Assembly: GCA_026993525.1 (NCBI GenBank)
Contig: JALWSS010000145.1
Span: forward strand, 1 to 50,457
From: Saprospiraceae bacterium
GTDB lineage: Bacteria > Bacteroidota > Bacteroidia > Chitinophagales > Saprospiraceae
Direction: 5' to 3'
Length of the DNA: 50,457 nucleotides
Positions 48,196 to 50,452 of the stretch are shown here, one piece after another (position 1 is the first letter of the stretch; every line of letters starts with the position of its first letter). The notes under the pieces were generated by a model. It was given only the letters and a program-made list of their open reading frames with translations. It was not told where the DNA came from and ran no database searches. Made by a program: the position numbers and the translations under genes.

Positions 48196-49593
48196 ATGCC
48201 CAGGCGATACGCAATAATAGATGTTGAAACCACGGGAGGAAGGACGATACGCGATAAAATTACAGAGATCGCTATCGTTCTGCACGACGGAGAGCAGGTG
48301 CTTGACACCTTTGAGTCGCTTGTCAATCCGGAATGCCCCATACCCTATGGCATCACAGAACTGACAGGCATCAGCAACGAGATGGTTGCCGAGGCTCCCA
48401 GGTTCTATGAAATTGCGAAGCGAATAGTTGAAATGACCGAGGGGGCGGTTTTCGTCGCACACAATGTCCGGTTCGATTACGGTTTTGTCAGGGAGGAATT
48501 CAAACGCCTGGGGTTCACCTACTCACGAAAACAACTTTGCACTGTCCGCCTGGCAAAAAAAGCCTTTCCCGGTTTGCGTTCCTATAGCCTTGGCAACCTC
48601 ATCAGAACACTGAACCTCAACGCTGGGGCCCGGCACAGGGCCATGGGCGATACAATGGCCACCGTTGATCTTTTTGAAAGGATCATGCGGCTTGAAAACG
48701 GTGAATCACAGGCCGGCGACCTGATAAATCCTGGCATCAAAGAAGCCCTGTTGCCGGGGGCACTTAATCTTGAAAAAATTCATTCGCTTCCTCAAGAATG
48801 CGGTGTCTATTACTTTCACGACCAATACGGCCAGGTGGTGTATGTGGGCAAGAGTATCAACATCCGGAAGCGGGTCGCTTCCCATTTTTCCAATAAGACC
48901 GAAAAGGCCGGCAAGCTTCAGAAACTGGTGCACGATGTCAGTTATGAAGTGACCGGAAGCGAACTGATTTCCCTGTTATACGAATCGCATGAGATCAAGC
49001 GCCTGCGCCCCTCCATCAACAGGGCACAGAAAAACCGCACCTTTCCCTGGTCCATTTACGCTTATCAAAACCAGGCTGGCTATTGGTGCTTTGATGTGGC
49101 CCGGACTTCAGCCTTGAAACAGAAACAGCTCCCCGTATTGTCATCTTACCCTTCGGCAATGCAGGCCCGGTCCTGGCTCAAATCACTCCAACAGGAGTAC
49201 GAATTGTGTTTGAAGCTCTGCAACCTGGAAAAGTCGAACGGCCCCTGTTTCGATTATCATCTTCATAAATGCCACGGAGCATGCATTGCGCAGGAGGATG
49301 CCCGCAATTACAACAGCAGAGCCATGCAAGCTTTTGAGCAATGGGATAAAAGCTACCCACACGACAACTTCATCATTGTAGATTCCGGCAGGGATGAGGA
49401 AGAATGTTCCATAATACTGGTAGAGAATGGAACATACCGGGGATGGGGATTTGCGAGGAAAGACCTGGTAAACGGCGTCAATCCTGAAGGTGCCCATGAC
49501 ATCATCACCAATTTCGATGACAACCAGGAAATCAGGCGGATCATCCTGAACCAGCTTCGCAAAAACAGGAAGCTAAAAGTGGTGCCATATTGA
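48196..49593 (+). CDS. DnaQ-like 3'-5' exonuclease fused to a UvrC/Cho-type GIY-YIG nuclease
   Basis: The protein has 465 aa. Residues 5-165 are a DEDDh exonuclease: Asp9/Glu11 (DVETTG), Asp94 (AHNVRFD) and His147/Asp152 (HRAMGD). A GIY-YIG domain follows (about 197-275) with GVYYF, VYVGKS and NIRKRVASHF, and Glu263 as the likely metal ligand. Downstream, GPCFDYHLHKCHGAC (about 352) is the cysteine-containing segment typical of UvrC and Cho. The helix-hairpin-helix and RNase H parts of UvrC are absent. Such DnaQ-Cho fusions are known in several phyla and are thought to act in DNA repair. The start at 48196 is the first Met before the exonuclease core. Confidence 0.92.
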   Translation: MPRRYAIIDVETTGGRTIRDKITEIAIVLHDGEQVLDTFESLVNPECPIPYGITELTGISNEMVAEAPRFYEIAKRIVEMTEGAVFVAHNVRFDYGFVREEFKRLGFTYSRKQLCTVRLAKKAFPGLRSYSLGNLIRTLNLNAGARHRAMGDTMATVDLFERIMRLENGESQAGDLINPGIKEALLPGALNLEKIHSLPQECGVYYFHDQYGQVVYVGKSINIRKRVASHFSNKTEKAGKLQKLVHDVSYEVTGSELISLLYESHEIKRLRPSINRAQKNRTFPWSIYAYQNQAGYWCFDVARTSALKQKQLPVLSSYPSAMQARSWLKSLQQEYELCLKLCNLEKSNGPCFDYHLHKCHGACIAQEDARNYNSRAMQAFEQWDKSYPHDNFIIVDSGRDEEECSIILVENGTYRGWGFARKDLVNGVNPEGAHDIITNFDDNQEIRRIILNQLRKNRKLKVVPY

Positions 49594-49663: not shown

Positions 49664-49990
49664 TTACACTTTGACTCCGAGCTTTTGCGCCAGCATGTAA
49701 TAAAACACTGCGCGATACTTGTGGTTGGAGTCGTACTCTTCACAAACAGCCTTGATAGCTTCATCGAGCTTCGGGCTGTCCTTCAAGCCAAGTTTCTTGA
49801 TGAGGAAGTTCTGCTTCACACGATCGAGCTCCGACTGATCTGAGCAGGATACAAGGGATGAATCTCTGTTGTAGATTGATGGGCCAAGACCTTTTGTAAT
49901 GGCTCTGAGCTGATCCGCATCAACTGCTGAACGGGTCTTACTTTTCAGATCGTTCTGGTACTTGTCGAGGAGTTCATCAAATTTACTCAT
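49664..49990 (-). CDS. DUF2853 family protein
   Basis: The protein has 108 aa from MSKFDELLDKYQNDLKSK (49990), the typical start of the family; an in-frame extension to 50065 has no conserved sequence. It is a small all-helical cytoplasmic protein, with the conserved ITKGLGPSIYNRDSSLVSCSD middle and the YRAVFYYMLAQKLG end. Family structures exist, but no function is known to me. It stands alone next to the tRNA-like array, and no transcription link is visible. Confidence 0.8.
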   Translation of the reverse strand: MSKFDELLDKYQNDLKSKTRSAVDADQLRAITKGLGPSIYNRDSSLVSCSDQSELDRVKQNFLIKKLGLKDSPKLDEAIKAVCEEYDSNHKYRAVFYYMLAQKLGVKV

Positions 49991-50186
49991 GATGATGTTG
50001 TGTTTTGAGTTAAAAGTTGGAATCAGGCCAAAGCTAACGAATTCTCTTTTAAACATGACCTGCAAAAAAACTGACTCTTTGACGACAGGTTGAATCGGAA
50101 GTCACTTGTGGCAACAAATGGGAGAGAAAATCAGAAAATCCCCCTCCTACCATAACGGTTTCTTATACCTGACTCTTGTTCCGGAA

Positions 50187-50226
50187 AACCTGGGAGGCAC
50201 ACTAACCGGTCTGCGCTACAGGAGGG
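50187..50226 (-). repeat. tRNA-like unit A, only the 5' half recognisable
   Basis: On the minus strand CCTGTAGCGCAGACCGGTTA (50222-50203) and the following GTG match the 5' part of units B and C, including the D arm. After that the sequence (GCCTCCCAGG) diverges and no T arm or 3' acceptor can be found. This is the most eroded copy. Confidence 0.65.
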
Positions 50227-50230
50227 ACAT

Positions 50231-50256
50231 AAAAAAAGCGAGCCGCTTGACTCGCT
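50231..50256 (-). terminator. Terminator behind tRNA-like unit B
   Basis: AGCGAG (50237-50242) pairs with CTCGCT (50251-50256); on the minus strand a T7 run follows. The stem sits directly after the 3' end of unit B, and its sequence nearly repeats that behind unit C. Confidence 0.8.
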
Positions 50257-50262
50257 TCTGTG

Positions 50263-50337
50263 TCGGGGTGGTGCCGAGTTCTCGGCACGACCCTCCCGAG
50301 CACTCGGGAAGCACTAACCGGTCTGCGCTACAGGGGA
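50263..50337 (-). pseudogene. tRNA-Pro-like unit B, degenerate
   Basis: On the minus strand the D arm (GCGC AGACCGGTTA GTGC) and the 3' acceptor CACCCCGA are kept, but the 5' acceptor strand (TCCCCTG) no longer pairs with it. The anticodon arm is the perfect palindrome TCCCGAG-TG-CTCGGGA (50309-50294). The T arm is another palindrome, GTGCCGAG-AA-CTCGGCAC (50288-50271), in place of the normal T loop. It has no usable anticodon. Confidence 0.75.
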
Positions 50338-50342
50338 GACAC

Positions 50343-50368
50343 AAAAAAAAGCGAGACCCTTGACTCGC
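50343..50368 (-). terminator. Terminator behind tRNA-like unit C
   Basis: GCGAG (50351-50355) pairs with CTCGC (50364-50368); on the minus strand a T8 run follows. It starts 8 bp past the 3' end of unit C, as expected for a transcribed tRNA gene. Confidence 0.8.
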
Positions 50369-50375
50369 TTCTGTG

Positions 50376-50452
50376 TCGGGGTGGCAGGATTCGAACCATG
50401 AGCGACCCTCCCGAGTACTCGGGATGCGATAACCGGTCTGCGCTACACCCCG
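50376..50452 (-). tRNA. tRNA-Pro-like unit C with aberrant anticodon arm (probable tRNA pseudogene)
   Basis: It is 77 nt on the minus strand. The acceptor stem is perfect (CGGGGTG with CACCCCG, then A73). TA at 8-9, the D loop AGACCGGTTA and a TTCGAAT T loop are present, all resembling proline tRNA. The anticodon region is TCCCGAGTACTCGGGA (50424-50409): a palindrome that leaves a six-base or shorter loop with no U33 and no NGG anticodon. The T stem has three extra bases and poor pairing (GCTCATGG against CCTGCC). It is therefore unlikely to decode proline. Its own terminator follows. The promoter would lie beyond the window. Confidence 0.6.

Follow-up and report, generated by a model that had tools for sequence, protein, structure and literature searches.

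Integrative elements that target tRNA genes leave, upon insertion, an intact copy of the gene and a displaced part of it. GTAG and CGTC are the tags of known REPs. CGTC repeats have been reported from Bacteroidetes among others and have been described as lacking a dedicated transposase (PMC3733652). SegB of phages T4 and T6 is a free-standing GIY-YIG homing endonuclease encoded in a tRNA cluster. In T6 it cuts inside tRNA genes, with RAWTSGAAC as the preferred motif (23 of 83 mapped sites), and together with recombination functions it brings about tandem amplification of a tRNA segment (PMC13096335). The original prediction knew of no bacterial family with the arrangement described below, and none appears among the matches listed from the open-access literature (titles and the starts of abstracts, without bioRxiv and most subscription journals), in which these elements are not described from bacterial chromosomes either.

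The DNA analysed here, referred to as the window, is the entire contig C145 of a Saprospiraceae bacterium, 50,457 bases of a genome of 5.16 Mb in 230 contigs. Its final 260 bases hold three tRNA-Pro-like units (A, B and C) on the minus strand, which are tandem remnants of tRNA-Pro(TGG) at the contig end. Judged from sequence, the window probably holds the downstream end of an array of such remnants, the ORF-less footprint of a SegB-like GIY-YIG element that resides in tRNA genes; we put the probability of this reading at roughly 0.7. The features are as follows.

50376..50452, minus strand: unit C, a full-length copy derived from tRNA-Pro(TGG), with a palindrome for an anticodon arm and a decayed T stem (Rfam and comparison with the intact gene)
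50409..50424, no strand: perfect palindrome TCCCGAGTACTCGGGA, standing where the anticodon arm of unit C should be
50343..50370, minus strand: terminator-like hairpin of the intrinsic type with a T run, after unit C (sequence and repeat comparison)
50263..50333, minus strand: unit B, derived from tRNA-Pro, with a palindrome in each of two arms (anticodon and T)
50294..50309, no strand, read on the minus strand: anticodon-arm palindrome of unit B, TCCCGAGTGCTCGGGA (TCCCGAG-NN-CTCGGGA), 7-bp stem, 2-nt centre
50271..50288, no strand, read on the minus strand: T-arm palindrome of unit B, GTGCCGAGAACTCGGCAC (GTGCCGAG-NN-CTCGGCAC), 8-bp stem, 2-nt centre
50231..50257, minus strand: terminator-like hairpin after unit B, 95% identical over 41 nt to the hairpin after unit C
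50200..50220, minus strand: unit A, a tRNA-Pro copy reduced to its 5′ part (TGTAGCGCAGACCGGTTAGTG)
49664..50056, minus strand: flanking gene beside the array, whose likely product (MSKFDELLDK...) begins inside the frame
48196-49593: exonuclease-like ORF with a GIY-YIG domain (494 aa); it lies some 0.6 kb from the array and encodes a fused protein, not one of the small element type

The tandem units that had been predicted are real. Unit C scores 29.5 bits against Rfam tRNA in a search within its own genome, and neighbouring units share parts (45 nt at 91% between C and B, 38 nt at 92% between B and A); the near-identical terminators foreseen after C and B are likewise present. The sequence CCGAGNNCTCGG has three matches in the window, all within the array, and none in 100 dinucleotide shuffles. 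The description of the arms as perfect palindromes is strictly true of the anticodon arm of C, while the two arms of B are stems around 2-nt centres. By eye, the hairpins take the place of the arms and are not insertions into them; in the anticodon arm of C, the 17 nt of the intact gene are missing and 16 nt stand in their place. The predicted destruction of both anticodon and T loop is seen in B, whereas C has lost its anticodon arm and merely has a decayed T stem, and neither unit therefore qualifies as a functional tRNA. A palindrome similar to that in the T arm of B, TGCCGA..TCGGCA, occupies the T arm of a remnant at the same locus in the congener G405.

ARAGORN finds no tRNA in the window, and an Rfam scan of the whole window at the gathering score lists a cut tRNA at 1-58 alone. 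There, on the minus strand, the left end of the window cuts a tRNA gene that scores 43 bits; its anticodon reads GTG by our reading, which makes it tRNA-His. Near the end of contig C153 there is another tRNA-His, so the tRNA-His locus may also be duplicated. No nuclease ORF of the small element type occurs in the window, where the sole GIY-YIG match is the fused 494-aa frame.

Elsewhere in the genome, long matches to the array are found only at the right end of contig C134. The order on C134 is dnaA, tRNA-Ser(GCT), an intact tRNA-Pro(TGG), its terminator and two further degenerate copies. This intact gene (L020:2561-2636) is the normal tRNA-Pro for which the original prediction had advised a search. 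C134 and C145 are probably the two sides of a single locus that holds five or more remnant copies. A homologue of the array-flanking gene of C145 is found about 2.8 kb downstream of tRNA-Pro in the congener G395 (68% identity, E 2e-46), which alone among 13 loci searched has one, and this supports the view that the two contigs border a single locus. The suggestion of a SINE-like, tRNA-derived amplifying repeat thus stands as regards amplification and hairpin arms and falls as regards dispersal, since long copies lie only at C145 and C134. A SINE-like retroelement is rejected on the same grounds: there are no dispersed copies at unrelated loci, and the two contig ends are most likely one place.

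C145 and C134 both end inside the Pro array, and C171 and C80 both end inside an array of tRNA-Asp. The units could on this account be an assembly artefact of a repeat-rich contig end. However, several distinct copies have different flanks, among them a C134 copy that is nearly identical to unit C and was assembled separately, and equivalent units occur in the assembled genomes of other species. An error in unit C is therefore unlikely, and we regard an artefact as the origin of the array as extremely improbable.

The dnaA-tRNASer-tRNAPro locus was compared in 13 congeners, of which 12 were read; the thirteenth (G407), on a contig that stops at the locus, was left out. Units that are hairpin-armed or decayed are present in six of the 12 (G396, G398, G400, G401, G404, G405). 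In two of these, an intact GIY-YIG ORF directly follows tRNA-Pro, in two copies about 390 bp apart in G400 and also in G405, and behind the ORF lies a 3′ remnant with palindromes. The other six (G395, G397, G399, G402, G403, G406) have no clear unit at the locus, and in G402, perhaps also in G395 and G397, there may be a worn vestige between tRNA-Ser and tRNA-Pro. Ten of the 12 carry tRNA-Pro alleles without a nuclease match. From the wider family 30 loci were fetched, 22 of which hold tRNA-Pro. No partial copy is found in 19 of the 22, some of which are cut off by a contig end; the remaining three are the source genome, L236, where a piece stands at a contig end, and G411. The last has palindromes in both arms as well as a frameshifted GIY-YIG gene.

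The intact tRNA-Pro genes themselves bear on how such an element might spare its host. The tRNA-Pro beside the broken nuclease of G411 is identical to that of the nuclease-free L257, and self-protection is therefore not explained by recoding of a rescue copy. In G400 and G405, tRNA-Pro has the same paired change in its T stem, but the anticodon arms of both match those of G403. A drive based on a recoded rescue tRNA is rejected on these two observations.

A further possibility is that the units are functional tRNA-like RNAs, acting as decoys or regulators under selection. The 5′ halves of the tRNA are kept, two units have terminator-like hairpins, and the units fold, with z-scores of −3.2 for unit B and −1.4 for unit C compared to −2.2 for the intact tRNA. 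Against this, the arms show free variation, the 5′ units are truncated, and the patchy occurrence of the copies, absent from 19 of 22 family-level loci and clear in half of the congeners read, leaves the tRNA mimic of the original prediction unsupported. We consider a selected RNA very improbable.

The pattern is not confined to tRNA-Pro. In the source genome, 43 Rfam tRNA matches were obtained and 40 places were compared with their surroundings. Seven tRNA genes have hairpin-armed copies, namely Pro, Asp, Asn, two Met, Arg and Cys. In the tRNA-Asp(GTC) copies, palindromes break the anticodon, T and D arms. Palindrome-broken copies also adjoin tRNA-Arg(CCT), the two tRNA-Met and tRNA-Cys, and the tRNA-Met copies of contig C65 have a T-arm palindrome. 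The 16-mer TCCCGAGTACTCGGGA of unit C occurs at eight places in the genome, all eight in tRNA-Pro or tRNA-Asp arrays, and the related TCCCGAGTTCTCGGGA at 12 places on other contigs. Given that the units recur in this way, both at seven tRNA genes of their own genome and at the same locus in congeners, the array of the window is not a stray pseudogene.

It also has a partner that the first inspection of the sequence did not see. This is a small GIY-YIG gene, which lies beside such arrays in the source genome, occupies the tRNA-Pro locus in two congeners and adjoins tRNA genes in many phyla. PF01541 (GIY-YIG) has eight matches in the source genome. Five are small ORFs, all of them inside three arrays: three in the Arg(CCT) array (one of them with a stop), one in the Asp array and one in the Met array. 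The other three matches lie in long frames (655, 251 and 494 aa), of which the 494-aa one belongs to the window. In the Arg array (L089, C229:4000-10000), the three GIY-YIG copies, including the stop-broken one, alternate with tRNA-Arg(CCT) copies that carry CCTGCC..GGCAGG-type inserts in the D loop and the T arm, and two of the GIY-YIG copies, in near-identical units, are 543 bp apart. The assembled part of the tRNA-Pro array holds no nuclease gene. Its nuclease may have been lost, may lie in the unread stretch that separates C134 from C145, or may act from another locus (C80, C65, C229).

The genome is also rich in palindromes of the same general form. The pattern TCCCGAN{2,14}TCGGGA is found at 739 places (for example on C1, C9 and C19) compared to six for the control, and at 0 to 275 places in 39 relatives; a link between these and the window array is unproven. 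This abundance favours a reading in which tRNA genes are duplicated in tandem and decay in the ordinary way, REP-like TCCCGA..TCGGGA palindromes land in the dispensable copies, and the nuclease is incidental. Likewise, the palindrome TCCCGAGCTTGCCTCGGGA of the tRNA-Asn remnant on C177 is found again elsewhere in the genome. On the other hand, outside tRNA arrays the GTAC-core palindrome found in the window does not occur. A genome-wide coupling of nuclease and palindrome numbers is rejected, as the correlation between GIY-YIG count and TCCCGA-palindrome count over 40 genomes is weak (Spearman 0.35, p 0.025; 0.31, p 0.058 without the source genome), and this counts against the SegB-like reading.

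A search for the pattern GGTTAG-N-TCCCGA..TCGGGA was successful in 27 genomes among 395 from the phylum, compared to three genomes for the reversed control. In the 29 loci fetched, some of which overlap, ARAGORN reports a tRNA in 17 (in one case about 600 bp off) and none in 12. Tandem arrays spaced 77-93 bp apart are present in four loci that were read (L095, L096, L099, L104). Near several hairpin-armed arrays in other genomes a motif search did not find GIY-YIG, which again suits the incidental role of the nuclease in the REP-like reading. In L096 (G273:C12), a run of tRNA-Asp genes lies among hairpin-armed copies, and three of them have a GCC anticodon on an Asp body and are called Gly by ARAGORN. 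This is an anticodon change inside an amplified array.

The linkage of nuclease and tRNA was then followed across bacteria. Named genomes were scanned with an alignment of five element proteins, which score 62-71 bits against PF01541 and have invariant Y, YIG, R, HN and E columns. The scan gave 123 loci, the best 80 of which were kept; these belong to Bacteroidota, Desulfobacterota, Patescibacteria, Chloroflexota, Planctomycetota, Nitrospirota and other phyla. Within flanks of up to 2 kb, ARAGORN finds a tRNA in 68 of these 80. The tRNA lies at most 300 bp from the GIY-YIG ORF in 66, on the same strand in 65 of the 66, upstream of the ORF in 42 and downstream in 24, and 15 isotypes are represented. 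From 43 tRNA places in 5.16 Mb, we estimate by simple arithmetic that such adjacency would arise by chance in less than 1% of cases. Since the query was built from tRNA-linked proteins, the linkage holds for one subfamily and not for all UPF0213-like proteins. A nuclease match was also found in 28 of 40 relatives searched, with an ARAGORN tRNA in 17 of the 30 loci fetched. Such a gene adjoins tRNA-Pro(GGG) in Draconibacterium orientale FH5T (L140), for example. This linkage resembles that of SegB in that a GIY-YIG gene stands beside tRNA genes of many isotypes, and the span over phyla speaks against an incidental nuclease.

The 12 named loci without an ARAGORN tRNA in the flank of up to 2 kb are not all devoid of tRNA sequence. 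Three (L142, L148, L154) have degenerate tRNA matches above the Rfam cut-off, L150 has a weak match below it, and L178 has tRNA-Pro-like ends on both sides, for which reason a tmRNA target at that locus is rejected. Another six have no tRNA-type match, and in four of these the ORF is near a contig end. At L169, the last of the 12, the subfamily's GIY-YIG ORF has a group I intron (2370-2636, 66.8 bits) directly downstream and no tRNA match was obtained; this hints at exchange between intron-linked and tRNA-linked nuclease lineages. In plasmid and phage collections, relatives of the element protein P0001 are found only below 60% identity, in 13 and 17 records, and a scan of viral contigs for the 5′ tRNA motif gave two contigs.

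Among 120 distinct GIY-YIG domains, 31 pairs fell within the identity and saturation limits, and dN/dS is below 0.5 in all 31 (median 0.15; the pairs are not independent), so the ORFs are under purifying selection. In 40 of 66 named loci, the nearest-neighbour nuclease is found beside a tRNA of the same isotype (7.3 on average by permutation, at most 22 in 5000); 14 of the 80 loci were left out of this comparison, having no tRNA within 420 bp or no full GIY-YIG domain. When the neighbour is forced to come from another phylum group, 17 of 66 still match (mean 7.3, maximum 19 in 5000), the groups being coarse, assigned by us from titles, and including a mixed "other". Related nucleases thus tend to share a tRNA isotype, and relatedness follows the presumed target and not only the host. 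As expected of the class to which SegB belongs, the bacterial elements outside the window have a GIY-YIG domain with intact motif residues, the gene adjoins its presumed target, and relatives have nuclease-free alleles. Unlike phage SegB, they are chromosomal in bacteria and encode a protein of 80-90 aa. The nearest solved structures are UPF0213-type proteins (1zg2 and 1ywl, E 7e-15 and 5e-13) and, from 1e-6, SLX1; the titles of these structures say nothing of tRNA-linked elements.

A typical complete locus consists of an intact tRNA gene with a GIY-YIG ORF of 80-90 aa immediately upstream or downstream of it, together with truncated copies of that tRNA in which the anticodon arm, and often the T or D arm as well, has become a short hairpin, most often of the TCC..GGA type. 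In L107 and L108, the GIY-YIG ORF stands behind an intact tRNA-Pro and before the displaced 3′ part of a tRNA, which has a palindrome for an anticodon arm and contains the ORF-ending TAG in its D loop. All four downstream-type ORFs followed to their end (these two and those of G400 and G405) enter the D arm of the 3′ remnant and stop at TAG. The possession of an intact tRNA copy and a displaced part is shared with integrative elements that target tRNA genes. Unlike those, the repeated unit is about 0.4-0.5 kb, with room for one ORF, and the displaced part bears hairpins.

The remnants were surveyed in 110 loci (80 named, 30 from relatives), 84 of which had an ARAGORN tRNA within 420 bp and were analysed (68 of the 80 and 16 of the 30; in the relatives' loci the ORF was taken, unchecked, to lie at 1501-1740). 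In 65 loci, 109 partial tRNA copies were found that measure 14 nt or more; shorter copies and those outside two position classes were left out. A perfect hairpin with an arm of at least 6 and a loop of at most 8 is found at the break in 78 of the 109, compared to 5.5% in letter shuffles, and the other 31 have no perfect hairpin of 6 bp there. Bridged remnants, in which 5′ and 3′ tRNA pieces surround an insert, were picked without asking for pairing, and pairs failing the gap rules were left out. With loops of at most 9, a perfect hairpin of at least 6 bp fills 44 of 60 (42 of them distinct), and 16 have none; letter shuffles gave a mean of 2.3 and a maximum of 6 in 100 rounds.

The inserts come in two styles. 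In the first, about 10-17 nt are replaced by a palindrome of the TCC..GGA type (Asp, Asn, Met, Pro, Ile and others), and in the second, a CCTGCC..GGCAGG-type palindrome is purely inserted (for example in Arg, Asn and Val). A TCC start and GGA end are seen in 40 of 64 distinct locus/palindrome pairs. The account of SegB, in its available part, makes no mention of tRNA arms replaced by hairpins (PMC13096335). Tandem tRNA copies in the bacterial loci nevertheless resemble the segmental amplification of a tRNA region reported there. The position of the breaks offers a second likeness. Among the ten 5′ units with a readable T stem (41 of 51 have none), the tRNA match ends at most 5 nt past the TTC of the T loop in eight. 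The T loop or T arm is thus a point of break or replacement in the remnants, and the reverse complement of the SegB motif as given there, GTTCSAWTY, fits the T-loop sequence GTTCGAATC by our reading.

Like REP/RAYT and CGTC palindromes (PMC3733652), the hairpins are short repeats with many copies per chromosome, and in 17 of 44 bridged inserts the string CGTC runs across the hairpin foot (two hairpin bases counted), which recalls CGTC-tagged REPs and agrees with the REP-like reading. Counting two hairpin bases in this way, a GTAG or CGTC tag is found in 18 of the 44, mostly composed of CG from the tRNA and TC from the palindrome. The CGTC at the foot mostly joins tRNA bases to hairpin bases, and a tag that lies entirely beyond the hairpin, up to 8 nt away, is seen in only 5 of 44. 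Wholly unpaired tags accompany 3 of the 39 TCCCGA palindromes found in the 80 named loci; in a sample from the source genome they accompany 2 of 13. A kinship with CGTC-tagged REPs is conceivable on these counts. A cognate Y1 transposase flanked by the repeats, as in REP/RAYT systems, is also not seen: the two loci with a Y1_Tnp match contain no TCCCGA..TCGGGA palindrome, and RAYT-driven insertion is rejected. Moreover, remnants are found in genomes nearly free of other copies of their palindromes, with one match to TCCCGAGNNCTCGGGA in the genome of L122 and one to TCCGNNAGCTNNCGGA in that of L182 (up to 10 in other genomes). Taken with the evidence given above on both sides, decay of ordinary duplicates colonized by REP-like palindromes appears unlikely.

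A special form of the SegB-like reading assigns the palindromes a more active part. They would be the ends of an element whose GIY-YIG protein acts on DNA hairpins, the transposing unit being [hairpin, tRNA part, ORF, intact tRNA, hairpin], and ORF-less units would be solo ends. Identical palindromes do flank the ORF and intact tRNA in L141, L151 and L189, and near-identical ones in L129, and the structure-specific nuclease SLX1 is among the nearest solved relatives. In tRNA-Met remnants, the stem at one and the same place varies (TCCGCC, TCCGTC, TCCGTT, TCCGCT) and stays paired through the changes, in 98.2% of cells vs 24-57% when slid. This covariation comes from seven distinct rows, inserts of other length or type having been left out (for example L181, 14 nt); both-sided changes affect two of eight pairs, a number that 210 of 500 shuffles reach, while five of 500 reach the covariation score. 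Many palindrome-bearing units have no ORF, however, in some elements a palindrome stands on just one side, and neither a target-site duplication nor a base-resolved pair of empty and filled sites was found. Palindromes as element ends are a possible but doubtful version of events.

Under the SegB-like reading in its general form, the nuclease would cut tRNA genes at arms or loops, and recombination between tRNA copies would let the array grow or collapse, by analogy with phage SegB. The tRNA copies would provide the homology both for spread and for array growth, and remnants would persist once cut sites or arms had become palindromes. Weighing against this reading are the absence of a small nuclease ORF from the window, the named loci without an ARAGORN tRNA, the arrays where a motif search found no GIY-YIG, and the remnants that have no perfect hairpin. 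As to how and why the palindromes arise, we infer that they may be repaired sites that are no longer cut, or hairpins on which the enzyme acts.

More tentatively, these loci may exemplify a minimal class of selfish element that is found throughout bacteria, with a single structure-specific GIY-YIG gene in a duplicated tRNA gene and with arm-replacing palindromes that are hairpin ends or cleavage-proof scars. Such elements would recurrently break, copy and re-arm tRNA genes, and the hairpins they shed might feed the REP-like palindromes of Bacteroidota, including repeats without a known transposase. The finding joins two things that have lacked an explanation, the short perfect palindromes of Bacteroidota genomes and the tiny GIY-YIG proteins of obscure role. 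Should the nuclease cut tRNA genes, the loci would represent selfish elements of very small size that live on the chromosome, within essential genes, and they would offer a testable source of changes in tRNA copy number, of tRNA pseudogenes and of assembly breaks at tRNA loci.
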